Virus record (IMG/VR): IMGVR_UViG_3300044701_000487
Location: 1-48,940 of that record
DNA from: a virus
Length of the DNA: 48,940 nucleotides
Reading direction: 5' to 3' (one strand)
The notes beneath the pieces were generated by a model. That model searched no databases. It saw only the letters and a list, made by a program, of their open reading frames with translations, and was not told where the DNA came from. Numbering within the stretch: position 1 is the first letter of the stretch; every line of letters starts with the position of its first letter. Of the stretch, positions 2,578-32,076 are shown piece after piece. The position numbers and the translations under genes were made by a program.

Positions 2578-3181
2578 GGCCGTGAAGATTCCTTCCAAAA
2601 TCCGGGCAGGTGACACGGTCGTGTGGCGCGACGAGCCCACTGTGGACGTGTTTGGAGCGCCGATCGACGGCAGCAACCACGGCCTGACCTACTACCTGCG
2701 CACGAATCACAACCACCAAGGCGCCACGGTGGCTGGTGTGACGGTGGTGGGCACGCCGGCCGGCAGCGGCTGGACGTTCACGATTTCGTCGGCGACCACT
2801 GCGGGCTTTATCGCCGGTGACTGGTACTTCCAGGCGGTGGCGACCGCCAACGTGGGCGGCGCGAAGACCACGATCGGCAGCGGTTCGCTGACAGTTGAGG
2901 CGAACCTTGCTTATGCGGGCCAGCCAAGCGCGTTTGATGGCCGGTCGCAGGCGCAGAAGGATCTGGATGCAGTGCAGGCAGCAATTCGCAGCCTGATGAA
3001 TGGCGGTGCAGTGCAGGAGTACCGGATCGGTACTCGCAACCTGAAGCGCTATGACCTAGCCGAGCTGCTGGCGCTTGAGTCACGGCTCAAGGCCGTGGTT
3101 GCCCGTGAGAACAAGGCGGCAATGATCGCCAATGGTCTTGGCAACCCGCACAACATGTATGTCCGCTTTGGTGGCCGCTGA
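2561..3181 (+). CDS. Head-tail joining protein, gpW-like C-terminus
   Basis: A 206-residue protein if TTG 2561 is used; GTG 2582, 5 nt after the terminase stop, is an equally plausible start. The N-terminal two thirds looks like an immunoglobulin-like beta domain (AGDTVVWRD, then alternating Thr/Val strands). The last 75 residues follow the lambda gpW pattern: an Ala-rich helix (DLDAVQAAIRSLMNGGAVQ), two short strands (EYRIGTRNLKRY) and a second helix (DLAELLALESRLKAVVARE). gpW completes the head and forms the tail-binding surface. The order A-W-B (terminase, this gene, portal) matches lambda. The extra N-terminal domain is not in lambda gpW. Confidence 0.75.
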   Translation: MSASGEAVKIPSKIRAGDTVVWRDEPTVDVFGAPIDGSNHGLTYYLRTNHNHQGATVAGVTVVGTPAGSGWTFTISSATTAGFIAGDWYFQAVATANVGGAKTTIGSGSLTVEANLAYAGQPSAFDGRSQAQKDLDAVQAAIRSLMNGGAVQEYRIGTRNLKRYDLAELLALESRLKAVVARENKAAMIANGLGNPHNMYVRFGGR

Positions 3182-4797: not shown

Positions 4798-7049
4798 TGG
4801 ACGAACTCAAAGAACAACTCGAGGCATCGGAAGAAGAGCGTGCAATGCACGATCTGACGGACGAGCAAGTGGCTGCGATCGGCGAAACTGTCGCTGAAGT
4901 GGTAGCCGAGCACATGGCCGAAGTGGTCGAGGATGTGATCGAAACGCTTGCTGGCGAAGAGACCGAATCCGAGGAGTACGCCGAGAAAGGCGCTGAGGAA
5001 ATGCCGATGGCAGCCGAGCGTGCCAAGCCTGGCGACCTGAAGACCGGTGATTTTGTTAGCTGGAACAGCTCTGGCGGTCGCGCCCGTGGCCGAATCGAGC
5101 ACATCATGCGCGAAGGCACGCTTGGTGTGCCGGACAGCGAATTCAGCATCGAGGCGAGCGAGGAAGACCCTGCTGCTTTGATTCGAATTTTCCGCGAAAG
5201 CACCGAGGGCTGGGAAGCGACTGAGACAATGGTCGGTCACCGCTTCAGCACCCTGACCAAGATTGACGCACTTCGCTCCATGGAGGGCAAGTACCAGCGG
5301 ACCGAGGTCACTGCATTTGCAGAGGTCGAAGACCGCTCGTTTGAATTCCCCTTCAGCTCTGAATACCCCGTGGCCCGGTACTTCGGAAACGAAGTACTGA
5401 GCCATGAGGGTGACGCCGCTGATCTGAGCCGTCTTAATGACGGTGCTCCGCTTCTCTTCAACCACAACCCTGACCGGGTGGTGGGTGTCGTTGAGCGGGC
5501 ATGGATCGACGGCGATAAGAAGCGCGGCTACGTCAAGGTCCGCTTCTCCCGCAACAGCTTCGCCAAGGAAGTGATGGCTGATGTCAAGGATGGCGTTCTT
5601 CGGGGCGTCAGCTTTGGTTATGCCATCGACAAGATGGAGGAGCGTGGCGACAACTTCGTAGCCACTCGTTGGAGTCCGTACGAAGTCTCGGTTGTTAGTG
5701 TGCCTGCAGATCCGACTATCGGAATCGGCCGGTCGCTTGCGATCGACTCTGCGGCCACCGCCGCATCACCAACCCCTCAAGAACCTGAGGTTCACATGGA
5801 GAACACCACCCCTGACGTGGAGGTGATCCGGTCCAAGGCCGTCGAGGCCGAGCGTAGCCGTATCGCTTCCATCACCGCCCTCGGCGACAAGCACGGCATG
5901 ACCGAGCTTGCACGTGAGCTCATCGACGGTGGCCGCAGCCTCGACGAGGCCCGTGCTGCCTTCCTCGAAAAAATCGACACCCGCAGCACCAAAGTGGAGC
6001 ACCGCATCGAATCGACCTCCGAGGTCGGCCTCAACGAGAAAGAGACCCGCAGCTATTCCTTCCTGCGTGCTCTGAACTATCTCGCCAACCCTGGCGACAA
6101 GCAGGCTGCTGAAGCCGCCGCTTTCGAGCGCGAGGTTTCTGACGCTGCTGCCAAGGCTTACGGCAAGCCCGCCAACGGTCTGATGGTGCCCAACGAGGTG
6201 CTTCGTCGTGACCTCGCCACCTCCCCTGCCACTGCTGGCGGCAACCTAGTTGCCACCGACCTGCTGGCTGGTTCGTTCATCGAGCTGCTCCGCAACAAGC
6301 TGGCTCTGGCCAACGTGGGCGCCACCGTGCTCAACGGCCTCCAGGGCAACATCGCTATCCCCAAGCAGACCGGCGCTGCCACTGCTTACTGGGTGGGTGA
6401 AGGCAATGCTCCTACCGAGAGCCAAGAGACCCTCGGACAGGTGACAATGTCGCCAAAAACCGTTGGCGCTTTCGTCGACTACTCGCGTCGCCTGCTGCTC
6501 CAGAGCTCCATCGACGTGGAGCAGATGGTGCGCAACGACCTGGCTCGCGTGATCGCCCTCGAGATCGACCGCGCTGGCATCTACGGCTCCGGCTCCAGCA
6601 ACCAGCCCCTCGGCCTGGTGAACACTGTCGGCATCAACACCAAGGCTCTGACCGGCTACGGCACCTTTGCCGAGCTGATCGACATGGAGACCGAGGTGGC
6701 CAAGGACAACGCCGACGCCGGCTCGCTGTTCTACCTGATGAACGCTGCTGCCCGCGGCGCTCTGAAGTCCACCGCCAAGTCTGCCTCTGCCGTGGCCGCT
6801 GGCTTCGTGTACGAGAACAATGAAGTGAACGGCTATCCCGCCGTGATCTCCAACCAGCTGGCCTTCGATGACATCATCTTCGGTGCCTTCGACCAGATGA
6901 TCATGGGCCTGTGGTCCGGTCTGGATCTGACCCTCGATCCTTATGCCGGCGCCACCAGCGGCACCGTTCGCATCATTGCTCTGCAGGATGTGGACTTCGC
7001 TGTGAAGCAAGCTGGCGCCTTCTGCTACGGCACCGGCGCTCTGTCCTGA
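4797..7049 (+). CDS. Fused prohead protease and HK97-fold major capsid protein
   Basis: A 750-residue fusion. Residues 1-75 are very acidic and scaffold-like. Residues 77-156 form a tudor/SH3-like DUF2945-type domain (TGDFVSWNSSGG, then DPAALIRIF). Residues 165-310 resemble a U35-type prohead serine protease, with likely catalytic H223 (FNHNPDRVVG), S272 (RGVSFGYAI) and possibly E296 (YEVSVVSVPADP). From about residue 345 comes a charged delta-like helix (RSRIASITALGDKHGM), then from about 400 an HK97-type capsid domain ending in VRIIALQDVDFAVKQAGAF. Protease and capsid are separate genes in HK97, and a fusion implies self-cleavage after assembly. Strong C/G third-position preference is evident by eye. 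Confidence 0.92.
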   Translation: MDELKEQLEASEEERAMHDLTDEQVAAIGETVAEVVAEHMAEVVEDVIETLAGEETESEEYAEKGAEEMPMAAERAKPGDLKTGDFVSWNSSGGRARGRIEHIMREGTLGVPDSEFSIEASEEDPAALIRIFRESTEGWEATETMVGHRFSTLTKIDALRSMEGKYQRTEVTAFAEVEDRSFEFPFSSEYPVARYFGNEVLSHEGDAADLSRLNDGAPLLFNHNPDRVVGVVERAWIDGDKKRGYVKVRFSRNSFAKEVMADVKDGVLRGVSFGYAIDKMEERGDNFVATRWSPYEVSVVSVPADPTIGIGRSLAIDSAATAASPTPQEPEVHMENTTPDVEVIRSKAVEAERSRIASITALGDKHGMTELARELIDGGRSLDEARAAFLEKIDTRSTKVEHRIESTSEVGLNEKETRSYSFLRALNYLANPGDKQAAEAAAFEREVSDAAAKAYGKPANGLMVPNEVLRRDLATSPATAGGNLVATDLLAGSFIELLRNKLALANVGATVLNGLQGNIAIPKQTGAATAYWVGEGNAPTESQETLGQVTMSPKTVGAFVDYSRRLLLQSSIDVEQMVRNDLARVIALEIDRAGIYGSGSSNQPLGLVNTVGINTKALTGYGTFAELIDMETEVAKDNADAGSLFYLMNAAARGALKSTAKSASAVAAGFVYENNEVNGYPAVISNQLAFDDIIFGAFDQMIMGLWSGLDLTLDPYAGATSGTVRIIALQDVDFAVKQAGAFCYGTGALS

Positions 7050-10633: not shown

Positions 10634-10869
10634 GCAAAACTTGGGAACAGGCCATACGGGAGTGGTGGTTTGAACTGCTGCTCCCTAGCAAGCTCGATCA
10701 GGCTGAGAAGGAATGGCACGCAACGCAGCCACCAGCTATTGAGCCGCCAGTGGTGATTGAGCATCCCATTGATCCTGAACTGCAAACTGGCGACAGTCGC
10801 CTCCTTGGTGGGGCAATGAGCATTCACGCCCCTTGGAGCAATGACGCAAAACAAGATCCGCCTGCTTGA
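10627..10869 (+). CDS. -1 frame extension of the holin-like gene (possible frameshift product)
   Basis: This frame has no ATG near its beginning. A -1 slip at A-AAA-AAG (10621-10627) joins it to the preceding gene, giving a protein of about 125 residues. The joined sequence reads naturally (RSIKGKKDLGKTWEQAIREW), followed by a helical segment (WFELLLPSKLDQAEKEW), a proline-rich stretch and an acidic tail. The composition looks coding. It ends inside the first codons of the endolysin gene. Either this is programmed frameshifting, or a single ancestral gene was broken by loss of one A from the run. Confidence 0.55.
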   Translation, partial: DLGKTWEQAIREWWFELLLPSKLDQAEKEWHATQPPAIEPPVVIEHPIDPELQTGDSRLLGGAMSIHAPWSNDAKQDPPA

Positions 10870-11887
10870 CCTGTTCAAGTACTACAAGGCATTGCCGCAT
10901 CAAATGGCGGCCTTGACGGAGCTGGAAGCTGCGATTAACAAGGCCAATCCGCACATTCTTGGCCGTGATCAGGCATGGTTTCAAACTTGGAGCCAGTCGG
11001 GTAAGCAAGAAGATGATTTACAGCCTGCTGTTGAGCTGATTAAAAAGTTTGAAGGTTGCAGGCTTGAGGCTTATTTGTGCCCTGTTGGTGTGTGGACAAT
11101 TGGCTATGGCCATACAGGCCCAAACGTCAAAGCTGGGCTGAAGATCACGCAACTTGATGCTGAGGCGCTGTTGCTGTCTGATATTGAACGTTTTGCCCGT
11201 GCTGTTGATACGTGGATCAAAGTTGGTCTGACGAATAATCAGCGTTGCGCGTTGATCAGCTTTACGTTCAATGTTGGCATTGGTGCTCTGCAGGAAAGCA
11301 CGCTGCGTAAGCGGCTAAACAACGGCGAAGATCCGGTCAAGGTGGCCATGGAAGAACTGCCAAGGTGGAACAAAGGCGATGGCAAGATCCTTGAGGGTTT
11401 AGTGCGTCGTCGTCGCGCTGAAGTTGAGTTGTTTTGCCATGGCGTTAAGCCAGTCAGCAATGACGTAAAACTGACGCCTGATAAGCCGTTTGATTTTCGC
11501 GTTACGCCACACATCAAATATGGCGAGCTTGCATTGAATCAAGAGGCCAGAAGGTTTGATAAACAGCATCAGTGCGATACAGCGGTTGTGCTTTGCAACT
11601 TCCTTGAACGGGCACGTACTGCGTTTGGTGGCAAGCCAATCATCATCACGAGTGGATATCGCCCAAAATCCATAAATCAAGCCGTAGGAGGATCATCACG
11701 CAGTGAGCATCTTTACGACGCGCCTGATACTGGCGCCGTTGATTTTTACTTGGAAGGTGTAAACATTTACGACCTGCAGGAATGGTGCAAGGTTCACTGG
11801 CCTTTCAGCTTGGGACTGGGCGCATCAAAAGGTTTTCAACACATCGGAATCCGCCCCGGACGGCCTAAAGTCCAGTGGGTTTATTAG
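10841..11887 (+). CDS. Two-domain endolysin: GH24 lysozyme plus M15 peptidase
   Basis: A 348-residue cell-wall hydrolase. Residues 1-58 are a helical lead domain. Residues 62-200 are a GH24 muramidase with the E-8aa-(D/C)-5aa-T triad as E71, C80 and T86; Cys at the middle place is tolerated in this family. Residues 215-348 are an M15-type zinc D,D- or L,D-peptidase with SGYRP (271-275) and probable zinc ligands H290, D301 and H334 (FQHIGIR). Together these would cut both glycan and peptide bonds of peptidoglycan. There is no signal peptide, so release needs the upstream holin. The start overlaps the frameshift extension of the holin-like gene. Confidence 0.92.
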   Translation: MTQNKIRLLDLFKYYKALPHQMAALTELEAAINKANPHILGRDQAWFQTWSQSGKQEDDLQPAVELIKKFEGCRLEAYLCPVGVWTIGYGHTGPNVKAGLKITQLDAEALLLSDIERFARAVDTWIKVGLTNNQRCALISFTFNVGIGALQESTLRKRLNNGEDPVKVAMEELPRWNKGDGKILEGLVRRRRAEVELFCHGVKPVSNDVKLTPDKPFDFRVTPHIKYGELALNQEARRFDKQHQCDTAVVLCNFLERARTAFGGKPIIITSGYRPKSINQAVGGSSRSEHLYDAPDTGAVDFYLEGVNIYDLQEWCKVHWPFSLGLGASKGFQHIGIRPGRPKVQWVY

Positions 11888-21552: not shown

Positions 21553-21870
21553 TTGGCGCGATCAACCGCTGCCGAAGTCAACTTCCGTGTTGACACTATT
21601 TACGGTCTTCTGACCGAAGGACAATCGCGTGGTCAGATTGTTCAATTCGGATCGAAGCAATGGAACATCACTCCACGTCAAGTAGATGAATACATCCAAC
21701 GTGCTCGCATTCGCCTAGAGGAAGACGCAGCCATGACCCGACCCTCATGGATCGCTGAAGCCTTAGGCCGTGCCCGTACCTACGAACAGTCCGCTTACAA
21801 GCGTGGGCAAACTCAAGTCGCCCTCAATGCCATCCAGCTTCAAGCCAAACTGATCGGTCTTGAAATTTGA
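21553..21870 (+). CDS. Small terminase subunit of the second packaging module
   Basis: A 105-residue protein beginning at TTG. The first 60 residues form an HTH-like domain (FRVDTIYGLLTEGQSRGQIV, then WNITPRQVDEYIQRARIRLE), followed by a helical oligomerisation segment (WIAEALGRARTYEQSAYKRG, then ALNAIQLQAKLIGLEI). This is the usual pattern for short TerS proteins that pair with Terminase_6-type large subunits. Its stop overlaps the TTG of the large subunit (TTGA). It has no similarity to the Nu1-like protein at 195-731. Confidence 0.8.
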   Translation: MARSTAAEVNFRVDTIYGLLTEGQSRGQIVQFGSKQWNITPRQVDEYIQRARIRLEEDAAMTRPSWIAEALGRARTYEQSAYKRGQTQVALNAIQLQAKLIGLEI

Positions 21871-23207
21871 GCCTCCTCGCCAATGTCCCTGGTGGCTTCC
21901 TGCTTGAACCGCCCTCATCTCAACAAACGGGGCCAACCACTGATCAAGCTTTAGACCGCATACGGCAATCGCTGTTGCCTCATCAGCTTGCCTTCTGTGA
22001 TGACACCGAGCACCGCAAGCTCGCCCTCGTCTGCGGGTTTGGTGCTGGCAAGACGCACGGCCTAGTTGCAAAAGCTGTGCATATGGCTGCTTTGAATATT
22101 GGCTACGTGTCAGCCCTGTTTGAACCCGTCGCCCCGATGTTGCGCGACATTTTGCAGCGCACGATGGATGACCTTTTAGAAGAGTGGGAAATACCTTTTG
22201 ATTTCCGTGTCAGTCCATTACCTGAATACACCCTGCATTTTGCCGAGGGCAGTCACACAATCCTGCTTCGCACGATGGAAACATGGAACCGCATCCGTGG
22301 CCAGAACCTTTGCGCCATTGGTTTTGACGAGGCCGATACCGCAAACAAACGGGTAGCAGAGCAGGCAACACGCATGGCCCTTGCCCGTCTTCGTGCTGGC
22401 AACGTACAGCAGTTCTATGCCGCCACCACGCCTGAGGGTTATGGCTGGGCATTCGATACCTTTGACCGTAACGCTGGGGAAGACACGGCCCTTATCCGTG
22501 CTCGCACCATGGATAACCCGTACCTGCCCGATGGCTTTATCGACAGCTTGATGGCGAACTACCCGCCTCAGTTGATCAAGTCCTATCTAGAAGGGCAATG
22601 GGTCAACCTCAACACGGGCCAGGTTTACGACCGCTTTGATCGTGCCAAGCATGTGGTGGCCAGCCTGCCTGATGTAAGCCGTGAGCCGCTGCGTGTTGGG
22701 GTGGACTTCAACGTCGGCAACATGTCCGCTGTCATCGGCGTGCGGATTGGGAACAGCCTGCTGGTGATCGACGAAATCAGCGGAGCGCACGACACGGACG
22801 CCTTGGCAAGTGAGATCAAACGGCGCTACCCCGACAGACGTATATATGTGTACCCAGATGCCTCAGGCGGGAACCGCAGCACCAACGCCAGCCGCACGGA
22901 TATTCAAATCCTTGAAAGCCACGGCTTCAGTAACCAGTCCGGCAAGGCAAACCCGCCTGTTCGTGATCGGGTGCTCAACATGCAAACCCTCCTAGAAAAT
23001 GCCAAAGGTGAGGTTCGGTTCAAAGTGTCAGAAACTTGCAAACGGCTGATCGAGTGCTTGGAGTTGCAGTCTTATGACGACAAGGGCAATCCCGATAAGC
23101 AGGCGGGTTTTGACCACCTTTGTGATGCCGTGACGTACTTGGCTTTCTGGGAGTTCAGCGTTGGGCGCTCCGGGATTGGTCGCGGCACTGGTGTGCGCCT
23201 GTATTGA
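21867..23207 (+). CDS. Large terminase subunit of the second packaging module
   Basis: A 446-residue terminase starting at TTG. Walker A is GFGAGKT at residues 57-63, Walker B AIGFDEAD ends at 157 with D154-E155, and a coupling motif ATTPEGYGW follows. The C-terminal RNase H-like nuclease shows VGVDFNVGNMSAV (first Asp), PDASGG and a final DHLCDAVTYLAF Asp. It is a classical headful- or pac-type TerL, different from the GpA-type enzyme at 724-2577. Its presence in the same contig means two independent packaging motors. Confidence 0.95.
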   Translation: MSLLANVPGGFLLEPPSSQQTGPTTDQALDRIRQSLLPHQLAFCDDTEHRKLALVCGFGAGKTHGLVAKAVHMAALNIGYVSALFEPVAPMLRDILQRTMDDLLEEWEIPFDFRVSPLPEYTLHFAEGSHTILLRTMETWNRIRGQNLCAIGFDEADTANKRVAEQATRMALARLRAGNVQQFYAATTPEGYGWAFDTFDRNAGEDTALIRARTMDNPYLPDGFIDSLMANYPPQLIKSYLEGQWVNLNTGQVYDRFDRAKHVVASLPDVSREPLRVGVDFNVGNMSAVIGVRIGNSLLVIDEISGAHDTDALASEIKRRYPDRRIYVYPDASGGNRSTNASRTDIQILESHGFSNQSGKANPPVRDRVLNMQTLLENAKGEVRFKVSETCKRLIECLELQSYDDKGNPDKQAGFDHLCDAVTYLAFWEFSVGRSGIGRGTGVRLY

Positions 23208-23234
23208 CGATTTGTGAAGTGACCACTGGGGTGC

Positions 23235-23264
23235 TTGCCAGATGGCAGGGGTATACCCCATAAT
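23235..23264 (+). promoter_or_regulatory. Promoter with perfect GGGGTATACCCC operator (site 4)
   Basis: TTGCCA (23235-23240), an 18-nt spacer and CATAAT (23259-23264) form a plausible promoter. The perfect palindrome GGGGTATACCCC (23248-23259) fills the space up to the -10. It precedes the rightward gene at 23301. The palindrome is the symmetrical version of the elements at 15394, 17284 and 19336. Confidence 0.72.
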
Positions 23265-23300
23265 TAAGGGACAGGGGGCGACCCCACCACACACAAGACC

Positions 23301-23543
23301 ATGAACACCAACTACACCGTTTTAATCGCCGCCCTCGCAAACCACATCTGGGACACCCTCAATGCCGACAACACCGTTAGCACTGACACTTACGCTTGGG
23401 TTGCCGCTGATCTTGAAAGCGCCGAAACTTTTGCCGAGGAGTATCGCTTCAGCGAAGCAGCCAGTTTTTTAATGTCTGCTGCTCGGCAAGTTTTTGGCGT
23501 CTACTCCGATGAATACGCCAATATCGCCAAGTTTTTTGTTTGA
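23301..23543 (+). CDS. Small hypothetical protein, operator-controlled
   Basis: An 80-residue acidic helical protein (NYTVLIAALANHIWDTLNAD, then AWVAADLESAETFAEEYRFS and EAASFLMSAARQVFGVYSDE). It stands alone between its own promoter/operator and a hairpin-T structure. This looks like an early gene inserted between terminase and portal rather than a structural gene. Function unknown. Confidence 0.6.
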   Translation: MNTNYTVLIAALANHIWDTLNADNTVSTDTYAWVAADLESAETFAEEYRFSEAASFLMSAARQVFGVYSDEYANIAKFFV

Positions 23544-23551
23544 CTTTTTAC

Positions 23552-23577
23552 GAGCCCTCTTTGGGGCGCTTTTTCTT
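23552..23577 (+). terminator. Probable rho-independent terminator
   Basis: GAGCCC (23552-23557) pairs with GGGCGC (23564-23569) apart from one A-G mismatch, with a 6-nt loop, followed by TTTTTCTT. It would end the short transcript of the gene at 23301-23543. The stem is short. Confidence 0.5.
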
Positions 23578-23730
23578 ATGACACAGCAACACCCCGTCAC
23601 CCCACCACCTGAGCGGTCCTTGAAGGAAAGGGCTCTGAGAGGATTGGACGTGATGATATCCAACGGCCACCTAGATGGTGAGTTAGCCGCTGCTCTGCGT
23701 GAGTTCTTGGAGGCGTCGCCCGATGACTGA
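23578..23730 (+). CDS. Small hypothetical protein
   Basis: A 50-residue protein from ATG 23578, directly after the hairpin; a longer frame upstream overlaps the previous gene. It reads MTQQHPVTPPPERSLKERAL, then a helix GLDVMISNG and a C-terminal ELAAALREFLEASPDD. The SLKE-AL-to-ALxxxL pattern recurs at the C-terminus of the protein at 23935-24303, suggesting related modules. It overlaps the next gene by 8 nt. Confidence 0.5.
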   Translation: MTQQHPVTPPPERSLKERALRGLDVMISNGHLDGELAAALREFLEASPDD

Positions 23731-23938
23731 CATCTCTTCTGCCGCGCAGGCTGTGCTGGATGCCTACAGAGGTCGATGGGATTACGATCTTGCTGCTGCC
23801 TTGCGAGCTGTTGCGGATCAAGTGGTGCCGGAAACAACAACACCTTGGAACTCAACAATCACTCCGATGATTTCCATAGCAGATGTTCGAGGACAAATAC
23901 TTGCCATCGCCGACGAACTTGAAGGAGTAGCCTCATGA
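23723..23938 (+). CDS. Small hypothetical protein
   Basis: A 71-residue protein from ATG 23723 (MTDISSAAQAVLDAYRGRWD, then YDLAAALRAVADQVVPETTT, and a final IADVRGQILAIADELEGVAS). It is helical and acidic, with the same AALRxVAD-type helix that appears in its two neighbours. Its stop overlaps the next ATG (ATGA). Confidence 0.55.
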   Translation: MTDISSAAQAVLDAYRGRWDYDLAAALRAVADQVVPETTTPWNSTITPMISIADVRGQILAIADELEGVAS

Positions 23939-24303
23939 CTGACAGCCCCATCACCCCACCGCCATTGGAGCTTGTGCTGCAGTGGATTGGTGAACACTTT
24001 GACTGCACTGCTGGTGGAGAACTTAGCGATTTAGAGCTTTTTCTTACCGTCCGCGCCGCCCAATGGGGCGCAGATCAAGAGCTGGAGGCGTGCTGTGAGT
24101 GGCTGGAGCAGCAGACTCTGTGTGGCCACCAAGACTTGCTTCCTTCATTCCGCGCCGCCCGCCGCCCCAAGCCGCCGAGCTTGAAGGAGCAGGCGCTGCA
24201 AGCACTAAACGATGCCGTCAAAATGGCCGATGACGCCCCGCCAGAAGGGATTTGCTCAGACCAAGCGGACATCATCCGCCGCGCATTGGAGCAGCTACCG
24301 TAA
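23935..24303 (+). CDS. Hypothetical helical protein
   Basis: A 122-residue protein. The N-terminal part (PPPLELVLQWIGEHFDCTAG, then AAQWGADQELEACCEWLEQQ) and the C-terminal part (PPSLKEQALQALNDAVKMAD, then DIIRRALEQLP) are both helical. The C-terminal part repeats the layout of the 23578-23730 product. It belongs to a run of four small genes between terminase and portal, a common location for variable accessory genes. Confidence 0.6.
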   Translation: MTDSPITPPPLELVLQWIGEHFDCTAGGELSDLELFLTVRAAQWGADQELEACCEWLEQQTLCGHQDLLPSFRAARRPKPPSLKEQALQALNDAVKMADDAPPEGICSDQADIIRRALEQLP

Positions 24304-24321
24304 GCCCGCCGCACAATCACA

Positions 24322-24510
24322 ATGTCCGCACCCCTCTGGCGTGATCTTGAAGCCGCCTTTGACGCCGTTCAAGACGACGGTTCTTACGACTTCAACGAAG
24401 CCGCATCGGCCATGCTCACCGCCATTCAACAATGGCTATACGACGAAGGCTTTGATGAAGCTGGTGATGCCCTTGACGATGAAATCAATCGCGCTGACCA
24501 AGGCGAATAA
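24322..24510 (+). CDS. Small acidic hypothetical protein
   Basis: A 62-residue, very acidic protein (LWRDLEAAFDAVQDDGSYDF, then NEAASAMLTAIQQWLYDEGF). Function unknown; strong negative charge could allow DNA mimicry, but this is speculation. The 125 nt between it and the portal gene carry only a short GACCC-TGCT-GGGTC hairpin without a T-run. Confidence 0.55.
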   Translation: MSAPLWRDLEAAFDAVQDDGSYDFNEAASAMLTAIQQWLYDEGFDEAGDALDDEINRADQGE

Positions 24511-24635
24511 ACTTTGACCCTGCTGGGTCGGTTCTGTCCGTAAGGCTGAACGCCGTGTGTGGCGGTATCGGAGGCCCAGCCAACATTCCCGATTAACCTA
24601 GAGCCATAGACTTTGTGCATGGCTAGGCGCAAAAG

Positions 24636-26108
24636 ATGACGTACACCGGTTTCAGGCACTATGACCGGAATCTGACGCGTACAGCCACGCAGGTTCAAGA
24701 TCCCAATGGCACTTGGGTTGCGCAGGAAGCGCATTGGATCCTGATTGAAGATCTGCTGCAGGGCACTTACGGAATGCGCCGCAAACATCGGCGTTATCTG
24801 CCGCAAGAACCCCGCGAGCAAGACGAAAGCTACGACAACCGCCTAGCCCGTAGCGTTTGCCCTCCGTATTACCAGCGTCTTGAACGGATGCTGGCCGGCA
24901 TGTTGACGCGTAAACCTGTGCGTCTTGACGATGTGCAGGATGTAATCCGCGAGCAACTGTTTGACGTTGACCTTCAAGGCAATGATCTCAATATCTTTAT
25001 TTATGAACTGAGCCGCAAGGTTGTTCGTTACGGCCATGCTGGCGTGTTGGTTGACTTTCCCAGCCAAACCGATGACGAAATTCAAAACATCACGGATGTT
25101 GCGTCTTTGCGCCCGTATTGGGTTACTTACACCCCGCGTGACATTCTTGGCTGGCGCTCTGAACTGGTCAACGGCGCACAGCAGCTAACGCAGCTTCGCC
25201 TGATGGAGCGAGTAACTGTCCCTGACGGTGAATACGGCGAAAAGATGGTGGAACAGGTGCGTGTATTGCGCCCTGGATCATTTGAATTGTTCCGCCAAAA
25301 CGATCAAACCGGCAACTTTGAAACGGTTGCAGAAGGCACCACCAGCCTTGATTACATCCCGTTTGCCACGGCCTATTCAAACCGTGTTGGCCTGCTTGAG
25401 TCTCGCCCGCCGCTGGAAGATATTGCCGAATTGAACCTGAAGGCGTATCAGATCCAGAGCGATCTGGACAACATGCTGCACATTTCGGCAGTGCCGATGC
25501 TGGCCTTCTTTGGCTTCCCGTCTAGCGCCGAGGAAGTTAGCGCCGGCCCTGGTGAGGCAATCGCATTCCCAGCTGAAGGCCGAGCTGAATACATCGAGCC
25601 AAGCGGCAACAGTTTCAAGTCACAGTTTGAGCGCCTGCAGCAGCTTGAACGGCAGATCAACGAACTTGGCCTATCCGCTGTGTTGGGTCAAAAGCTGAGC
25701 GCCGAAACCGCCGAGGCCAAGCGTATTGATCGCAGCCAAGGCGATTCCACCATGATGGTGATCGCTCAGCAGGTGCAAGATCTAATCGACAACTGCCTGC
25801 GTTTCCACGCTGATTACCTTCGCATTCAGCAGGCTGGCAGCAGCTACGTCAATCGTGATTTCCTTGGCGCACGTCTTGAACCGCAAGAGATTACTGCGCT
25901 GTTGCAAACGTACACCGCTGGTGTAATCAGTCAGAAGACGTTGCTTGATCAACTTGCCCAAGGCGAAGTGCTCGGTGATGATTTTGACGTTGAGGAAGAA
26001 CTTGAAGCGACACAAGCTGGTGGGTTGATTGAAATGGGCGGCCCTGAAAATCTTGGCGCCGAAGACGTAACCGGCGAAGAAATGCCTAGCGATGAAATGA
26101 TGCAATGA
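24636..26108 (+). CDS. Portal protein, DUF4055 type
   Basis: A 490-residue portal of the second head module. Hallmarks are the N-terminal wing (HWILIEDLLQGTYGMRRKHR, YLPQEPREQDESYDNRLARS), YYQRLERMLAGMLTRKPV, the RYGHAGVLVDFP strand, and the stem/clip region with LNLKAYQIQSDLDNMLHISA and the conserved GQKLSAETAEAKRIDRSQGD helix. The C-terminus is acidic. It is unrelated in sequence type to the portal at 3181-4797. It overlaps the MuF-like gene by 4 nt (ATGA). Confidence 0.9.
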   Translation: MTYTGFRHYDRNLTRTATQVQDPNGTWVAQEAHWILIEDLLQGTYGMRRKHRRYLPQEPREQDESYDNRLARSVCPPYYQRLERMLAGMLTRKPVRLDDVQDVIREQLFDVDLQGNDLNIFIYELSRKVVRYGHAGVLVDFPSQTDDEIQNITDVASLRPYWVTYTPRDILGWRSELVNGAQQLTQLRLMERVTVPDGEYGEKMVEQVRVLRPGSFELFRQNDQTGNFETVAEGTTSLDYIPFATAYSNRVGLLESRPPLEDIAELNLKAYQIQSDLDNMLHISAVPMLAFFGFPSSAEEVSAGPGEAIAFPAEGRAEYIEPSGNSFKSQFERLQQLERQINELGLSAVLGQKLSAETAEAKRIDRSQGDSTMMVIAQQVQDLIDNCLRFHADYLRIQQAGSSYVNRDFLGARLEPQEITALLQTYTAGVISQKTLLDQLAQGEVLGDDFDVEEELEATQAGGLIEMGGPENLGAEDVTGEEMPSDEMMQ

Positions 26109-28222
26109 CGCAATCCGGCGTAACACCTCGCCTGCTAAACGTTGAGCAGTTCAAGCGGCGTATTGATCGCAGGAATCCTGTTGCCAACATTTATCGCAAT
26201 GCCATTGATCTGAACCGTTTCAGCAATGCGGTTGCTAAGCAGATCGTGCGCGATTACAACGCCATCATCCTTAGCGCCGTTGATGATCTGAAACGCATTG
26301 ATTTTGGCGAGGCAACTGCCGGTGCTGGCATCGTTAGCCCACAATCAGTCCAAGCTCAACGTTTACGCGTCATCCTTGCTCAGCTCAAAGAATCGCTAGA
26401 CGGCTGGGCAGGCAGAAACACGGCGTATGTGGCCACGGAGCTACAAGGTTTAGCTGAGCTGCAAACCGAATTTGTTGCCGAACAACTGCGGCTTGCGATT
26501 GAAGGCGGTCAAATTGGCGCACGCGGCATTGAACCCAGCGTTGTTGCTCAGCAAGTTGTCCGCACTGTGGAAGTGTCACCAAACTTTGCGGCAACGGTCG
26601 CCACGGTTGACCCCACTGACCTTAACTTCACGCTGCCTGGTACTGGTGGTTTCAATTTGACCGCTGCACAAGGCTCAGCCATCACCCTGCCGAACGGTGA
26701 AGTCGTGTCCAAGGCATTCCGTGGCCTCGCTGAATCGCAAGCACAGCGTTTTAACGCCATCGTTCGCACGGGCCTATTGACCGGTGAGCCGACACCGCAG
26801 ATTGCTCGCCGTATGGTCGGATCGCTTGACTTTGGTCAGCTTGCAAAAACAGCACGGCAGCAAGCCCTAGCCGGTGGCGAACTAACCCGTATGGCTGACC
26901 ACCAGGTGCTCACCATTGTGCGGACCAGTGTGCAGCAAGTGGCCAATGAAGCCAGCCAACAGGTCTATCGCGCCAATGAAGACGTAACGCAAAAGTATCA
27001 ATACCTTGCCACGCTGGATAGCAGAACATCAGCTATCTGCCGCAGTCTTGACGGCAAAACATTCAAATACGGTGATGGTCCTACGCCACCTGTTCATTTC
27101 AACTGTTTACCGGGTGATGCGCGTGTATCTACCAGTTGCCGGATCGCGGCGGTGTACCGTCGGCCATATCAAGGCTTCTTGTATGTCATCAAAACTACCG
27201 ACGGTGACATGCTCAGAGTCACCCCAAACCACCCTGTACTGACTGATTCCGGCTGGAAGGCTGCGCAAAACATTGATATTGGTGACAAGGTTTTCCGCCG
27301 CGACTTCATTCCATCTGAAACTCTTGCAAGCGACCAAAAAAATCAAATTGAAGCCACTGCTGAGGATATATTTAGTGCGTTCAGGAAATCGCCTTTTGTG
27401 TTCGCCGTAGAAGTGCCAATTTCCTCCCCAGATTTCCACGGCGACGTTCCCGCAGAGCAAATCGCAGTTGTACTTGCCAATCGGGAATTGCTCTTCACAG
27501 TTAATCCCGACTTGCTGCAAATGCTGCAAAACAGTAGTTTCGAGCGGGCTGGTTCGACGGGCGCGGGCGTTGGCCATTCGGCGCAAAGTTTCGTCGCTAT
27601 TGAAAGTGCCACGTTTGGCGGCATGAGCAGCGGAGGCCAAAGCCTTCCTTTCAAGGGGAGTAGCACGAGCCATGCGAGCGAATTGTTGTTCGCTTCTATT
27701 CCTAAGCTTGCGCCCGGACCCCAGAATGATTCGCTCTATGGGTCGTGGCGAGACGTTGAACTGATCAGCGATCCCTCTGACTCCAATACCGCTGTCGTAC
27801 AAGGAAATGATGCGGTCAACGTCGCTTGGGTTGGGCGGGAACCATTTAGCGGGCATGTCTACAACTTTGAGACCGAAACCGGCCTGTACTGGGCAGACTC
27901 CATTTTAACCCACAACTGCCGCAGTACAACAATCCCCGTCATTGATTACCGCGCTCTTGGTCTGCGTCCACCCGAGGAAGTAATTGGCCCTGCTCGTCGT
28001 GCTGCTGCTGGTGGGCAAGTTTCAGCAGAAACAAACTATGCAAAATGGCTGCGTGATCGCCCCGAAGTACAACGTGAAATTTTTGGCAGCAAGCAACCGT
28101 ATTACACAATGCTGGTGGACAAATACGGCCCCGAAGGTGCCTTGTCCCGCATGGTGCGTGATGACGGCAGCGAAGTTACGCTGAAACAGTTGCAAGAACG
28201 TTATGGCAAGCCCGCCGCTTAG
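26105..28222 (+). CDS. MuF/SPP1 gp7-like head morphogenesis protein interrupted by an intein
   Basis: A 705-residue precursor. Residues 1-333 and 605-705 form the mature protein (434 residues). The MuF/gp7 signature is split at the insertion: IVRTSVQQVANEASQQVYRA, ATLDSRTSAICRSLDGKTF, then PPVHFN joined to CRSTTIPV. Such proteins are minor head components that help prohead assembly or DNA ejection. The intein occupies residues 334-604 and must splice out to restore the H-x-N-C-R motif. The gene directly follows the portal, the usual place for MuF-like proteins. The C-terminal tail (KWLRDRPEVQREIFGSKQPY) is also typical. Confidence 0.92.
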   Translation: MTQSGVTPRLLNVEQFKRRIDRRNPVANIYRNAIDLNRFSNAVAKQIVRDYNAIILSAVDDLKRIDFGEATAGAGIVSPQSVQAQRLRVILAQLKESLDGWAGRNTAYVATELQGLAELQTEFVAEQLRLAIEGGQIGARGIEPSVVAQQVVRTVEVSPNFAATVATVDPTDLNFTLPGTGGFNLTAAQGSAITLPNGEVVSKAFRGLAESQAQRFNAIVRTGLLTGEPTPQIARRMVGSLDFGQLAKTARQQALAGGELTRMADHQVLTIVRTSVQQVANEASQQVYRANEDVTQKYQYLATLDSRTSAICRSLDGKTFKYGDGPTPPVHFNCLPGDARVSTSCRIAAVYRRPYQGFLYVIKTTDGDMLRVTPNHPVLTDSGWKAAQNIDIGDKVFRRDFIPSETLASDQKNQIEATAEDIFSAFRKSPFVFAVEVPISSPDFHGDVPAEQIAVVLANRELLFTVNPDLLQMLQNSSFERAGSTGAGVGHSAQSFVAIESATFGGMSSGGQSLPFKGSSTSHASELLFASIPKLAPGPQNDSLYGSWRDVELISDPSDSNTAVVQGNDAVNVAWVGREPFSGHVYNFETETGLYWADSILTHNCRSTTIPVIDYRALGLRPPEEVIGPARRAAAGGQVSAETNYAKWLRDRPEVQREIFGSKQPYYTMLVDKYGPEGALSRMVRDDGSEVTLKQLQERYGKPAA
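27104..27916 (+). mobile_element. Intein (271 residues) within the MuF-like gene
   Basis: Block A begins with C334 (CLPGDARVST). Block B has the TxxH motif (RVTPNHPVLTDSGW). Block F/G is GHVYNFETETGLYWADSI then LTHN, followed by Cys as the first C-extein residue. All residues for class 1 splicing are present: Cys1, block B Thr and His, penultimate His, terminal Asn and Cys+1. No LAGLIDADG, HNH or GIY-YIG motif is present in the sense reading. The middle contains a segment (VPISSPDFHGDVPAEQIAVV) of a kind I associate with Hint domains in phage MuF proteins. The nuclease is instead on the other strand. Confidence 0.93.
27107..27856 (-). CDS. Vsr-like (EDxHD-type) homing endonuclease encoded antisense within the intein
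   Basis: A 249-residue protein read from the strand opposite the intein. Residues 11-50 form an HTH (DVDRIISLYDSGIGVRGIAD, then QFNVSPRPIERIILGSGRKL). Residues 103-178 form a Vsr-like nuclease core: SPLETTVLQHL (E106), IGKYNCDLLC (D132), VAVEIWGGNWHFYGEH (E141, H148), RRFPERTKYILSSGFNLIFL. The C-terminus RRDPATGRYTRITR is a basic DNA-contact-like tail. ATG 27856 lies 60 nt inside the intein end and TAA 27109-27107 lies opposite intein codon 2, so the gene is wholly inside the mobile unit. Codons of both strands are in register. The family is known from phage introns and split inteins. No ribosome binding site is obvious. Confidence 0.88.
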   Translation of the reverse strand: MPAKWFPPNPSDVDRIISLYDSGIGVRGIADQFNVSPRPIERIILGSGRKLRNRSEQQFARMARATPLERKALASAAHAAKRGTFNSDETLRRMANARARRTSPLETTVLQHLQQVGINCEEQFPIGKYNCDLLCGNVAVEIWGGNWHFYGEHKRRFPERTKYILSSGFNLIFLVACKSFRWNEVAAENLVTNINVLRSLPAGISQYRVVWGDSEHVTVGSFDDIQEALIWPTVHRRDPATGRYTRITR

Positions 28223-28484
28223 GCATTTTAAAGATGGTTACGTTTACAGCGATCCTGTATGCGCCCTAGTCGGTGAAACATGGATCAATGCCATTTACAC
28301 CAGCGAAGGCTGGTTCACGCCCGATCTGGGCATTAAATTGGATGCAGTTGCCGAATGGTCTGATGGCCCAAAAGAAAACGAAGGCCGAACAGAAGATCGG
28401 CAAAGTAATGAAGGAGTACAAAGCCGGAACACTGAAAAGCGGCAAGCCAAGCCCCGGCAAAGGTCCAACCGTCAAAAGCCGTAA
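28203..28484 (+). CDS. Small hypothetical protein after the MuF-like gene
   Basis: A 93-residue frame starting 20 nt before the MuF stop. The first 57 residues look coding (MASPPLRHFKDGYVYSDPVC, then ALVGETWINAIYTSEGWFTP and DLGIKLDAVAEWSDG). The rest is polar, Arg/Asn/Gln-rich and overlaps the next gene by 122 nt. The overlap may be real or the frame may have lost an earlier stop. Function unknown. Confidence 0.5.
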   Translation: MASPPLRHFKDGYVYSDPVCALVGETWINAIYTSEGWFTPDLGIKLDAVAEWSDGPKENEGRTEDRQSNEGVQSRNTEKRQAKPRQRSNRQKP

Positions 28485-28548
28485 ACAAGCAATTGCTATC
28501 GCGCTGAGCGAAGCTGGTAAGGCACGCAAAAACAAAGGTAAAAAGTGA
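28363..28548 (+). CDS. DUF6496-like small basic protein
   Basis: A 61-residue protein from ATG 28363 (MAQKKTKAEQKIGKVMKEYK, then GKGPTVKSRKQAIAIALSEA). The KVM-EYK-G-L-SG and VKSRKQAIAIALSEAGKA motifs are widely conserved in small phage and bacterial proteins of the DUF6496 type. High Lys content suggests nucleic-acid or virion-DNA binding. It overlaps the preceding frame heavily and the next gene by one base. Confidence 0.7.
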   Translation: MAQKKTKAEQKIGKVMKEYKAGTLKSGKPSPGKGPTVKSRKQAIAIALSEAGKARKNKGKK

Positions 28549-28904
28549 TGGCACGCTCCTACAAACGAGATCAAATCGGCAGATTTTCCGGCACTGGCGG
28601 AGCGTCTTATGGAAATAAGTCGGACCGTAATTCAGACGAAAGCTGGGCTCGCCGTGAAAAAAGAAAATTAAACAAAGAAAAGAAAGAGCTTGAGTCAAAA
28701 TTAAAAAAGGCTCAAGCCAAACAACCATCAGCTAAAGCATCGGCTGCGAAGGCCGGCCTTGAAACAGCTCGTGCCAAAAAAGCGGAGGCAACTAAAAAAC
28801 TAGAAGCCAGTAAAGCGCGAATGGCAGAATTGAAAGCGCAGTTGGAAGCCAGCAAGGCAAGACTTGGCGGCAAATCAGCAACCAAACGAGGGGCAAGAAA
28901 GTAA
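28548..28904 (+). CDS. Basic coiled-coil protein
   Basis: A 118-residue Lys/Ala-rich protein from ATG 28548 (TGATG overlap). The N-terminus MARSYKRDQIGRFSGTGG is followed by a continuous coiled coil with repeated ELESKLKKAQAK- and KKLEASKARMAELKAQ-type heptads. It may be an internal head or scaffold-associated protein. No specific family identified. Confidence 0.6.
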   Translation: MARSYKRDQIGRFSGTGGASYGNKSDRNSDESWARREKRKLNKEKKELESKLKKAQAKQPSAKASAAKAGLETARAKKAEATKKLEASKARMAELKAQLEASKARLGGKSATKRGARK

Positions 28905-29134
28905 TGGCCATCGGAATTGGATCCCGCGTTAGCTGGGTTTATCAAGGCACACGCACCTACGGCACCGTGACCGGCAGGGCTGGCAATCGCGCAACCATTG
29001 AAGGCCCGTCTGGCGGCAAGGTCACACGCGTTGGTAGTAACGACGACCCGATCCTGCGCATTCAATCGGAATCAACCGGCAACCCAGTTCTGAAAAAGCG
29101 ATCAGAATTGCGCGAGGCGCCTAAAAGCAAATGA
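28904..29134 (+). CDS. DUF2945-type tudor/SH3-like small protein
   Basis: A 76-residue protein: GIGSRVSWVYQGTRTYGTVT, a central SGGKVTRVG strand, NDDPILRIQS and VLKKRSELREA. The pattern GxxVxW-GtV-DPxxxI-vxKRxsxL is that of small DUF2945/tudor-like proteins. A domain of the same pattern is fused within the capsid-protease of the first head module (residues 77-156 of 4797-7049), so both head modules carry it. It may bind DNA or a capsid partner. Confidence 0.7.
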   Translation: MAIGIGSRVSWVYQGTRTYGTVTGRAGNRATIEGPSGGKVTRVGSNDDPILRIQSESTGNPVLKKRSELREAPKSK

Positions 29135-29322
29135 ACGGCAAAATTTGGGAGGGCAGTTGCACCTACCTCAAGTGCGCTGATGGTCTAATTGAAGGCCGCT
29201 TCCTGTTCCCCGTGCCAAACACGCCGGAGGGCCTTGGTGCATTGATGGGCCGCCTTGCTGAAGGCGTTGAAGTCATTACCTGCACCGAAAATAATGACGA
29301 TGAGGATGAAGACGATGATTGA
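29131..29322 (+). CDS. Small acidic hypothetical protein
   Basis: A 63-residue protein: a beta-rich body (KIWEGSCTYLKCADGLIEGR, FLFPVPNTPEGLGALMGRLA) and a polyacidic end (NNDDEDEDDD). ATGA-type overlap with the previous gene. It may partner the basic small proteins around it. Family unknown. Confidence 0.55.
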   Translation: MNGKIWEGSCTYLKCADGLIEGRFLFPVPNTPEGLGALMGRLAEGVEVITCTENNDDEDEDDD

Positions 29323-29587
29323 GTATCGCGGCGAAAAATTTGACGGCTACAACAAACCCAAGCGCACGCCAAATCATCCGACCAAATCCCACGCCGTTCT
29401 GGCTAAGGAAGGCGAAAAGGTCAAACTGATCAGGTTTGGCCAGCAAGGGGTATCAGGCTCACCGCCACGTGAAGGCGAATCAGAAGCCGCCAAGGCCAGA
29501 CGGGCATCCTTTAAGGCCAGGCACGCCAAGAACATTGCCAAGGGCAAAATGTCTGCTGCCTACTGGTCAGATCGCAGCAAATGGTGA
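29315..29587 (+). CDS. Conserved phage protein of unknown function
   Basis: A 90-residue basic protein from ATG 29315. The body (HPTKSHAVLAKEGEKVKLIR, FGQQGVSGSPP, then RRASFKARHAKNIAKGKMSA and AYWSDRSKW) is a conserved pattern in many tailed phages, near the portal and scaffold genes. The role is unknown; charge suggests nucleic acid binding inside the head. It overlaps the acidic gene by 8 nt. Confidence 0.7.
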   Translation: MIEYRGEKFDGYNKPKRTPNHPTKSHAVLAKEGEKVKLIRFGQQGVSGSPPREGESEAAKARRASFKARHAKNIAKGKMSAAYWSDRSKW

Positions 29588-29782
29588 TCAACGGCCTTCG
29601 CTTTGGTGTATCCGATCCTTAAGCTCCGCCACATACTTACGCAGCGCGTTGGCGTTATCTGCGTGCCAGCGGTCATGAGTCTTTAGGTATTCTCGCGTGT
29701 GCAGATCAATCGCCTTCAACATATGGTGAATGATCGGGTTCCATGGCTCACGTACTGGTGTATCCCATTCACGACGGGACAT
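29588..29782 (-). CDS. Small hypothetical protein on the opposite strand
   Basis: A 64-residue protein from ATG 29782 (MSRREWDTPVREPWNPIIHH, then a helix IDLHTREYLKTHDRWHADNA and LRKYVAELKDRIHQ). Aside from the intein-embedded nuclease it is the only leftward gene in the structural region. It is convergent with 29315-29587, with zero spacing. The helical, charged composition looks real. It may be an independently inserted gene. Confidence 0.55.
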   Translation of the reverse strand: MSRREWDTPVREPWNPIIHHMLKAIDLHTREYLKTHDRWHADNANALRKYVAELKDRIHQSEGR

Positions 29783-29839
29783 GACGTGCAAAAAGCAGCG
29801 TTTACTTATACACTTTGGCGGTAAACCCTACGGGTCACA

Positions 29840-30535
29840 ATGTCTGACGAACAACTGCAGGAAGCTACGCCGACTGCAAGCCCTGAAGATCTTGACAAGT
29901 TAAAGCGCAGCGTTGAAGCGCTAGAGCGCAAGAACTTTGAACTGATCGGCAAGCTTAAAGAGCAAAAGGAAAAGACCGTTTCGGTTCCTGATGGTGTAGA
30001 CGTTCAGGAGCTTCTAGACTTCAAGCGCAAAAAAGAGCAGGAAGAACTTGAATCCAAGGGTAAGTACGACGAAGCCCTAAAGCAGTACGCCCAACAGTTT
30101 CAAGAACGCGAGGAAGGTTACAAAAAGCGCATTGCTGAACTTGAGTCAAAACTGACCGTTAATCAGCTAGACAATCGCGTTGTCGCCATCCTTGCTGAAC
30201 AGGGTGCTCATAACCCGCATGATGCGTTGCGCCTTGTGCGTGATCAGCTCAAGCTTGATGAAAACGGCAACCCCGTAGCAGTGGACGGCTACAACGAAGT
30301 GCCGATGGAACAATGGGTTTCACGCCTCAAAGAAGAGCGTGGCTACCTGTTTAAGCCCCCCAGCATCAAAGGCTCTGGCGCCCCTGTCGTCAGCCGCTCT
30401 GGCTCCGGTGATGTACCTGTCGGCACGAAAAACCCATTCAGCCGGGAGCACTTCAACCTCACCGAACAATCCCGCTTGTTCAAAACCGACCGCGATCTAT
30501 ACGAACGCTTGAAGGCAGCCGCAAACAATGCTTAA
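29840..30535 (+). CDS. Capsid scaffolding protein
   Basis: A 231-residue protein dominated by coiled coil in its first half (EDLDKLKRSVEALERKNFEL, FKRKKEQEELESKGKYDEAL, QQFQEREEGYKKRIAELESK). It ends in a short basic/helical capsid-binding tail (SREHFNLTEQSRLF, DLYERLKAAANNA). Its position directly before the capsid gene and its GP20-like layout support scaffold function: it would template the prohead and then leave. An upstream segment (29800-29839) may hold a promoter, with a TATACA-like box. Confidence 0.85.
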   Translation: MSDEQLQEATPTASPEDLDKLKRSVEALERKNFELIGKLKEQKEKTVSVPDGVDVQELLDFKRKKEQEELESKGKYDEALKQYAQQFQEREEGYKKRIAELESKLTVNQLDNRVVAILAEQGAHNPHDALRLVRDQLKLDENGNPVAVDGYNEVPMEQWVSRLKEERGYLFKPPSIKGSGAPVVSRSGSGDVPVGTKNPFSREHFNLTEQSRLFKTDRDLYERLKAAANNA

Positions 30536-30619
30536 TATGTAACCGTTAGACGCGAATTGGCTACGCCATCCGTCATTGGGTTACGCCCGCATCGTAAAAA
30601 CCATTCTTGAGGATTAGTC

Positions 30620-31648
30620 ATGGCGACCCTTCGCTCTGACATCATCATCCCCGAGGTATTTACGCCTTACGTCATCGAGCAAACCACTCAGCGTGATGCC
30701 TTTTTGGCTTCCGGTGTGGTGCAGCCCATGGCTGAGCTGAATGCCACCGAGGGCGGTGATTTCATCAACGTTCCTTTCTGGAAAGCAAACCTTTCCGGCG
30801 ACTTTGAGGTGCTGACCGATAGCTCCTCGCTGACTCCTGGCAAGATCCAAGCTGATAAGCAAATCGGCGTGATCCTGCACCGTGGCCGCGCCTTTGAGGC
30901 CCGTGATCTGGCTGCTCTTGCTGCTGGTTCCGACCCCATGGCTGCCATCGGCGCCAAGATTGCTGATTACGTTGCTAACCAGCGTCAGAAGGATCTGCTG
31001 TCCTGCCTGCAGGGTTGCTTCGGCAGCCTGAATGCCAACACCAACAGCTCTGCCTTCTTCGATCTCTGCATCGATTCGGCTTCCGCTGACACCCCCACCA
31101 CTCTGAGCCCCCGCCACGTTGCTGAGGCCCGCGCCATTCTTGGCGATCAAGGTGACAAGCTGGCTGCTGTGGCCATGCACTCCAAGGTGTATTACGACCT
31201 TGTTGAGCGTCGTGCCATTGATTACGTCAGCACTGACGAAGCCCGCGGCACCTCCACCACCCAATCCGGTGGTTCGCTGGTTGCTGCTTATGGCGGTCAG
31301 GTCAACGTGCCCACCTACATGGGTCTGCGTGTGATCGTGTCCGACGATGTGCCTACTGCCGGTTCCGGTAGCACCACTGAGTACGGCACTTATTTCTTCA
31401 CCGCTGGTGCAGTGGCTTCGGGCGAACAACTCGCCATGCAGACTGAAACCGACCGTGACATCCTCGCCAAGAGTGATGCAATGTCGATTGACCTGCACTA
31501 CTGCTATCACCCTGTGGGTGCTAAGTGGGGCGTCACTACTGTGAACCCGACTCGCGCACAGCTTGAAACCGTGGGCAACTGGTCCAAGGTGTATGAGCTG
31601 AAGAACATTGGCATTGTGCGTGCCACCAACGTCTCCAACATGGACTGA
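30620..31648 (+). CDS. Major capsid protein of the second head module
   Basis: A 342-residue protein with a good ribosome binding site (TGAGGA about 8 nt before ATG). The N-terminus is SDIIIPEVFTPYVIEQTTQR. The E-loop-like region is GGDFINVPFWKANLSGDFEV, followed by DLAALAAGSDPMAAIGAKIA and VAMHSKVYYDLVERRAIDYV in the A-domain. It ends with HPVGAKWG and LETVGNWSKVYELKNIGIV. It matches capsids of the scaffold-dependent HK97-fold group without a fused protease. It differs from the capsid encoded at 4797-7049. Confidence 0.9.
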   Translation: MATLRSDIIIPEVFTPYVIEQTTQRDAFLASGVVQPMAELNATEGGDFINVPFWKANLSGDFEVLTDSSSLTPGKIQADKQIGVILHRGRAFEARDLAALAAGSDPMAAIGAKIADYVANQRQKDLLSCLQGCFGSLNANTNSSAFFDLCIDSASADTPTTLSPRHVAEARAILGDQGDKLAAVAMHSKVYYDLVERRAIDYVSTDEARGTSTTQSGGSLVAAYGGQVNVPTYMGLRVIVSDDVPTAGSGSTTEYGTYFFTAGAVASGEQLAMQTETDRDILAKSDAMSIDLHYCYHPVGAKWGVTTVNPTRAQLETVGNWSKVYELKNIGIVRATNVSNMD

Positions 31649-31662
31649 GGAGGACACTAACA

Positions 31663-32076
31663 ATGGCATCCATTTTTGAACTCGGTGACATCCCCGGCGG
31701 CCTTCTGCCGGCTCAGATGAAACTGGCGGCTCCTACTGCGACCGCAACCCTGTCTGCAGCTAACAGCTACAACGTCATCATCCGTGGCGTTCCTTCTGCT
31801 GCTGCCACCTACACCACTGCTACTGCTGCCGCAATCGTGGCGGAAATCGGTGGTGATTGCGCTATCGGCACCACTTTTATGGTGGTTGTGCTGAACGCTT
31901 CTGCTGGCGCCAACACTATTACCGTCGAAGGCGGTAGCGGTGTGACCATGAGCGGCGTGGCAACTGTTGCTCAAAATGCCTCCAAGGTTTTCCTTGGTCG
32001 TGTGACTGCTGTTGCCTCTGGCTCTGAAGCGATCACCCTTTATGGTCTGGGTTCTACCGCTGCTGCGGTTGCCTGA
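31663..32076 (+). CDS. Head decoration-like protein
   Basis: A 137-residue Ala/Thr/Val-rich beta protein (MASIFELGDIPGGLLPAQMK, TATATLSAANSYNVIIRGVP, GTTFMVVVLNASAGANTITV). It lies 14 nt after the capsid gene, the usual place for decoration or stabilising proteins, and has a GGAGGA ribosome binding site. No exact family assignment is possible by eye. Confidence 0.6.
   Translation: MASIFELGDIPGGLLPAQMKLAAPTATATLSAANSYNVIIRGVPSAAATYTTATAAAIVAEIGGDCAIGTTFMVVVLNASAGANTITVEGGSGVTMSGVATVAQNASKVFLGRVTAVASGSEAITLYGLGSTAAAVA

Follow-up and report, generated by a model that had tools for sequence, protein, structure and literature searches.

The MuF-like head gene of a virus (IMG/VR record IMGVR_UViG_3300044701_000487) is interrupted by an intein that has an almost equally long open reading frame on its opposite strand. 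Is this antisense frame a gene, and could it encode the homing endonuclease of the intein? The window analyzed here is the whole stretch of 48,940 nucleotides, positions 1 to 48,940 of the record.

A class 1 intein in a MuF-like head gene

The interrupted gene scored above the cut-offs of both PF04233 (44.3 bits, cut-off 29.6) and TIGR01641 (53.2 bits, cut-off 39.65), and its product matched head morphogenesis proteins in PHROG (1.5e-73). The insertion met the sequence criteria of a class 1 intein, namely Cys1, a block A, a TxxH block B, a C-terminal His-Asn and Cys+1, as well as a clean in-frame position in a conserved host motif of which intein-less alleles are known. The N-terminus was recognized by TIGR01445 (intein_Nterm, 27.5 bits, cut-off 24.5). 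The features of the sense strand are:

26105..28222, plus strand: MuF-like minor head protein gene, interrupted by the intein
26105-27103 and 27917-28219, plus strand: MuF exteins flanking the intein
27098..27103, plus strand: insertion site in the MuF motif PPVHFN^CRST, which is joined in empty alleles
27104..27916, plus strand: class 1 intein of 271 aa, with Cys1 in block A CLPGD, block B TPNHP, C-terminal GHVYNFETETGLYWADSILTHN and Cys+1
27221..27235, plus strand: intein block B TPNHP, constrained on both strands

The splicing blocks of the window intein are complete and conserved; protein splicing itself is inferred from these intact blocks, on sequence evidence only. No nuclease domain was found in the sense-frame linker between blocks B and F, and the criterion for a canonical large intein, a nuclease inserted in the sense frame, is not met. 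Profile and database matches of the sense frame fell in the splicing blocks or in the host protein family, and a structure prediction of the sense intein without an alignment was uninformative (pLDDT 31).

The antisense ORF extends from block F to block A of the intein in exact codon register with the sense frame and covers 750 of its 813 bp (92%). In this register sense position 3 pairs with antisense codon position 1, and each antisense codon is complemented by one sense codon. Its boundaries are:

27107..27856, minus strand: predicted homing endonuclease gene of 249 aa (helix-turn-helix and EDxHD/Vsr-like nuclease), assigned from conservation, selection and predicted fold
27854..27856, minus strand: ATG start, complement of the CAT of intein His251 (GHVYNF block)
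27107..27109, minus strand: TAA stop, complement of the TTA of intein Leu2 (CLPGD)

A preliminary description, made without database searches, had placed a class 1 intein lacking a sense-frame nuclease domain in a MuF-like head gene at 27104-27916, and an antisense frame of 249 codons covering about 92% of it at 27107-27856. The coordinates proved exact, and the assignments held in the domain searches (PF04233, TIGR01641, TIGR01445). Evidence that the set of sense blocks cannot splice would have spoken against that description; none was found.

Elsewhere in the window, terminase, portal and major head genes occur twice, as two distinct sets (724-7049 and 21867-31648), and there is an endolysin gene (10841-11887). 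This 49-kb record could combine two phages, hold elements in tandem or have been joined during assembly.

Selection acts on both strands of the intein

The antisense ORF is a real gene and not a chance open frame. Openness alone is weak evidence, because this register often keeps long antisense ORFs open. As a negative control we used a 351-aa antisense ORF that lies over the major head (capsid) gene in the same codon register (30614-31669, minus strand). This ORF was not conserved: stops interrupted it in 30 of 59 capsid homologues, sense position 1 changed only 0.39 times as often as position 3, and antisense identity (0.51) was far below sense identity (0.80).

The intein ORF did not behave in this way. 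Between the splicing blocks (intein residues 66-240), changes at position 1 were more frequent than those at position 3 by a factor of 1.7-2.3, and the antisense frame was better conserved than the sense frame, with identities of, for example, 0.70 versus 0.49. The exteins and the intein C-terminus outside the ORF followed the ordinary sense pattern of codon variation, the wobble switching from sense position 3 to position 1 within the antisense ORF. We further estimated dN/dS from single-difference codons in 19 disjoint pairs (proteins 67-98% identical), counting opportunities on both strands. The values were 0.10 (95% 0.07-0.12) for the antisense protein and 0.28 (0.21-0.38) for the sense intein. 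Selection therefore acts on both strands, and more strongly on the antisense one. Sense dN/dS was 0.40-0.49 in the middle of the intein; opposite blocks A and B, sense and antisense values were both about 0.17.

Intein codon choice provides translation signals on the complement

The intein histidine opposite the nuclease start was encoded by CAT in 117 of 122 relatives, where the same genes would predict 52% (p 5e-27). A tetramer resembling a Shine-Dalgarno was present just upstream of the nuclease ATG in 77 of 140 relatives, versus 24.5 expected (mean of 2000 synonymous shuffles, maximum 39). Representatives below 60% identity agreed, with CAT in 60 of 64 and a Shine-Dalgarno in 52 of 77 (17.3 expected). 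Thus, across the family, synonymous intein codons have been selected to place an ATG and a Shine-Dalgarno on the complementary strand.

Most Shine-Dalgarno-bearing members derive it from the AAC-CTC of a VYNL motif and some have AGGAGG; in most relatives the nuclease ribosome site lies within the intein C-terminal block. The group of the window reads VYNF, with NF and not NL in block F, and has no clear Shine-Dalgarno. A search of the window for an antisense promoter found none. Antisense expression, including the source of an antisense transcript, is inferred from sequence alone.

A chance antisense ORF was rejected as a candidate explanation on the grounds of codon variation, dN/dS, start and Shine-Dalgarno codon choice and the negative capsid control.

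The antisense protein is predicted to be an EDxHD/Vsr-like nuclease

A structure model of the antisense protein, based on an alignment of 93 sequences, reached a mean pLDDT of 92.8. It consists of an N-terminal helix-turn-helix (helices within residues 10-46), a helical linker and a nuclease core. These parts and the residues of the core lie at:

27719..27829, minus strand: N-terminal helix-turn-helix, aa 10-46 (HTH_7 1.8e-4; model helices 10-21, 26-33 and 37-46)
27377..27541, minus strand: nuclease core, with residues invariant or nearly invariant in 93 sequences
27539-27541, minus strand: core residue E106
27461-27472, minus strand: core motif Y129-N130-x-D132
27434-27442, minus strand: core motif VAVE141
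27413-27415, minus strand: core residue H148
27377-27379, minus strand: core residue R160
27431..27445, plus strand: sense motif DFHGD, complement of the nuclease motif VAVE[IV]

R52, Y129, N130, D132, E141 and G145 did not vary among the 93 sequences, and E106, H148 and R160 varied very little. Of the putative EDxHD catalytic set, the acidic residues E106, D132 and E141 thus vary hardly or not at all. H148, with a conservation of at least 90% in the main set, is missing from distant members and hence is not universal.

Searching PDB with the single nuclease sequence gave no match, and a profile was required. The profile matched 3hrl, a DUF559-type endonuclease (4.5e-6), and 3r3p, the homing endonuclease I-Bth0305I (1e-4); its match to Vsr was weak (0.66). 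A fold search of PDB with the model returned I-Bth0305I (3r3p) at the top with probability 1.00, viral fold matches included Vsr-type and DUF559 endonucleases, and Pfam MTES_1575 was matched by 69 of the 93 members. A relation to I-Bth0305I in sequence or fold, one criterion for an EDxHD/Vsr-like homing endonuclease, is thus fulfilled. On the basis of selection and the predicted fold, the model points to a helix-turn-helix protein with an EDxHD/Vsr-like nuclease; that it cleaves DNA is inferred.

Distribution of the antisense nuclease

A tblastn search with the antisense protein matched 118 phage records, in which identity along the full 249 aa reached 37.5%, from phages of Salmonella, Pseudomonas, Gordonia, Klebsiella, Vibrio, Acinetobacter and other hosts. 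Three of the listed Salmonella phage records have hypothetical proteins annotated under the match. The protein was also found in one Promineifilum record and in viral and prophage contigs, the prophage-like ones from Pseudomonas, Rubellimicrobium, Chitinophaga and a planctomycete. We retrieved 154 loci, some of them near-duplicates. In 153 of these the sense frame, in the same register, has no stop opposite the match, and intein blocks are readable on the sense strand in nearly all of them. One of the 153 open loci (L104, 1168-1860) has a stop in the matched nuclease frame, and its sense frame ends just past the match; it may be a decayed element or reflect a sequencing error.

Variants of the arrangement were also observed. 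Six loci (L027, L028, L030-L033) have a nuclease extended by a second helix-turn-helix and a correspondingly longer sense linker. The automatic match covers one helix-turn-helix in these members, and the open sense stretch continues over the remainder. A search with the sense protein gave five further inteins, and in four of them the antisense nuclease is present. Gordonia phage Nordenberg (L242:2062-5169) holds the fifth, which occupies the same MuF site but is unrelated and has only a marginal, 10-bit match to the antisense nuclease; the site is therefore contested by different inteins. Most members are inserted at the motif HxN^CR of MuF. A divergent member in phage fEg-Eco06 (L240:2359-4296) occupies a second site in the same head gene, with the nuclease again antisense. 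When three alignments of the nuclease and a single divergent member were used for scans, no host gene other than MuF came up among the loci whose host gene was checked.

The only one of the 154 loci without an open sense frame holds a free-standing nuclease beside an intein-less MuF gene. Free-standing copies occur in Acinetobacter phages IME285 and BUCT629 (L034:413-1348, L236:2806-3699), where the nuclease gene is convergent with an intact intein-less MuF gene and overlaps it by a few bases. In IME285 nine sense stops lie opposite the nuclease, leaving no intein frame. The nuclease can therefore exist alone. This form may be ancestral or an escape from the intein.

Empty sites and mobility

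The empty site was recovered in 80 viral contigs that are contiguous through the joined junction. In a tree of spliced MuF proteins, occupancy changed at least 9 times, and the distribution of the intein is patchy. The window MuF protein groups with empty alleles and is 99% identical to one of them; the DNA of the host gene is 91-93% identical to empty alleles, from which it differs by a clean 813-bp insertion. A second occupied locus (L002) has an empty near-copy (94-97% identity). The empty alleles and the patchy distribution on the host-gene tree strongly imply homing of one composite unit, an inference from these patterns and not from a cross. They fit repeated homing; losses are not excluded. 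The target specificity of the nuclease is inferred solely from its position.

These results bear on the remaining claims of the preliminary description. The helix-turn-helix held (HTH_7, model helices and profile), as did three acids of a Vsr-like core given as E106, D132, E141 and H148; the histidine held in part. Neither of the other outcomes that would have refuted it, a failed profile search for Vsr-like/EDxHD nucleases or antisense stops in homologues with intact inteins, came about: the profile matched, and the frame stays open under purifying selection stronger than that on the sense frame. The proposal of one mobile unit, with splicing element and nuclease on opposite strands, is supported by the empty alleles and the patchy distribution, homing remaining an inference. 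The family-wide architecture, the ribosome site in the intein C-terminal block of most relatives and the free-standing form go beyond that description.

Proposed mechanism and alternatives

Dual coding, selection on both strands, a start and Shine-Dalgarno selected family-wide, conserved acidic residues and empty sites are established from sequence. We regard it as very likely that the locus is a mobile intein whose splicing domain is traversed, on the antisense strand, by its homing endonuclease gene; the nuclease fold is a prediction, and splicing, cleavage and expression from the antisense strand are inferred. The sense strand would be translated within the MuF head protein, from which the intein would splice itself out. 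The nuclease would be made from the antisense strand, which has a start codon of its own and, in most relatives, also a Shine-Dalgarno. This enzyme is presumed to cut the HxN^CR codons of MuF alleles that lack the intein, and repair from the occupied allele would copy the intein and nuclease genes together, as inferred from the distribution. The sense residues between the splicing blocks may be mostly a linker dictated by nuclease codons. A bolder reading, which we consider probable, is that of a widespread class of mobile inteins in which both strands of the same codons encode a splicing domain and a nuclease, the start (mostly with its Shine-Dalgarno) lying in block F and the stop often in block A, such that loss of either protein damages the gene of the other.

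The antisense ORF might be a by-product of the register and its conservation a shadow of the conserved intein. The register is indeed exact, and the capsid gene also has a long antisense ORF. However, antisense constraint exceeds sense constraint, the capsid ORF acts as expected of a shadow whereas the intein ORF does not, synonymous codons are chosen that create the ATG and Shine-Dalgarno, the predicted fold matches I-Bth0305I, and a free-standing copy exists without any sense frame. This explanation is practically ruled out. It is also conceivable that the protein is a real DNA-binding nuclease whose main benefit is not homing. It might exclude competing phages by cutting their intein-less MuF gene, or regulate the head gene through its helix-turn-helix. 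Phage homing nucleases can exclude competitors, the helix-turn-helix is conserved, and the free-standing Acinetobacter copy adjoins an intact intein-less MuF gene. Yet homing predicts what is observed, a near-obligate tie to one intein type, nearly always one motif, many empty alleles and repeated gain or loss, and the cut made in homing would bring about exclusion as a side effect; we hold this alternative to be very improbable.

The nuclease could finally be inactive by now in many lineages and be kept only because the sense intein needs the codons, for which the stop in the nuclease frame of L104 speaks. The low antisense dN/dS of the 19 pairs, which indicates continuing purifying selection, and the nearly invariant catalytic residues argue against this, and we think it highly unlikely.

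Relation to known systems

Both parts of the mobile intein proposed here are of known kinds, a class 1 intein and an EDxHD/Vsr-like homing endonuclease; their arrangement differs from the known ones that we compared. I-Bth0305I shares the nuclease core by profile and fold and was deposited as a mobile intron protein; it is intron-linked, whereas the window gene lies antisense inside an intein and has an N-terminal helix-turn-helix. Canonical large inteins share the class 1 blocks, the invasion of conserved sites and the empty alleles. Their LAGLIDADG or HNH nuclease is an in-frame sense insert and part of the spliced-out protein, whereas the window nuclease is a separate protein from the other strand that shares codons with blocks A and B. 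In the system of Dassa et al. (2009), Vsr-like nucleases are reported to be free-standing between the halves of split inteins in fractured genes; a related nuclease type is thus tied to inteins, but the window intein is contiguous.

The ShiLan element (Genes 2025, PMC11855218) is a phage insertion without sense stops whose nuclease is hidden in another frame. That nuclease is a same-strand HNH enzyme and no splicing domain was detected; in the window the nuclease is on the opposite strand and is not HNH, and splicing blocks are present. Some group I introns also have a homing endonuclease gene on the strand opposite a self-splicing element (I-DsqI, PMC9548176), and there the nuclease is expressed and active. 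Their host element is a ribozyme, however, and no translated product from the other strand shares the nuclease codons. The preliminary description knew of no intein with an antisense nuclease, and no description of one was found in the literature searched. A 2025 bioRxiv preprint by Gosselin et al. (10.1101/2025.01.02.630785), which concerns inteins of 'non-canonical architecture' in actinobacteriophages, lay outside our search; it may overlap and is the main risk to novelty.

If the proposed reading is true, the locus is a natural case of two conserved, unrelated folds on opposite strands of one stretch of DNA in perfect codon register. The arrangement recurs in phages of Proteobacteria and Actinobacteria, in cyanophage relatives and in prophages of other phyla. 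Such a dual-strand intein offers a direct test bed for the evolution of overlapping genes, and it may resist loss of its nuclease because damage to one gene risks the other. Gene callers suppress antisense overlaps, so this family of probable homing nucleases is largely hidden. A simple marker for further members is the sense motif DFHGD: the complement of VAVE[IV] reads DFHGD in 101 of the 154 loci, and most of the remaining ones have close variants.
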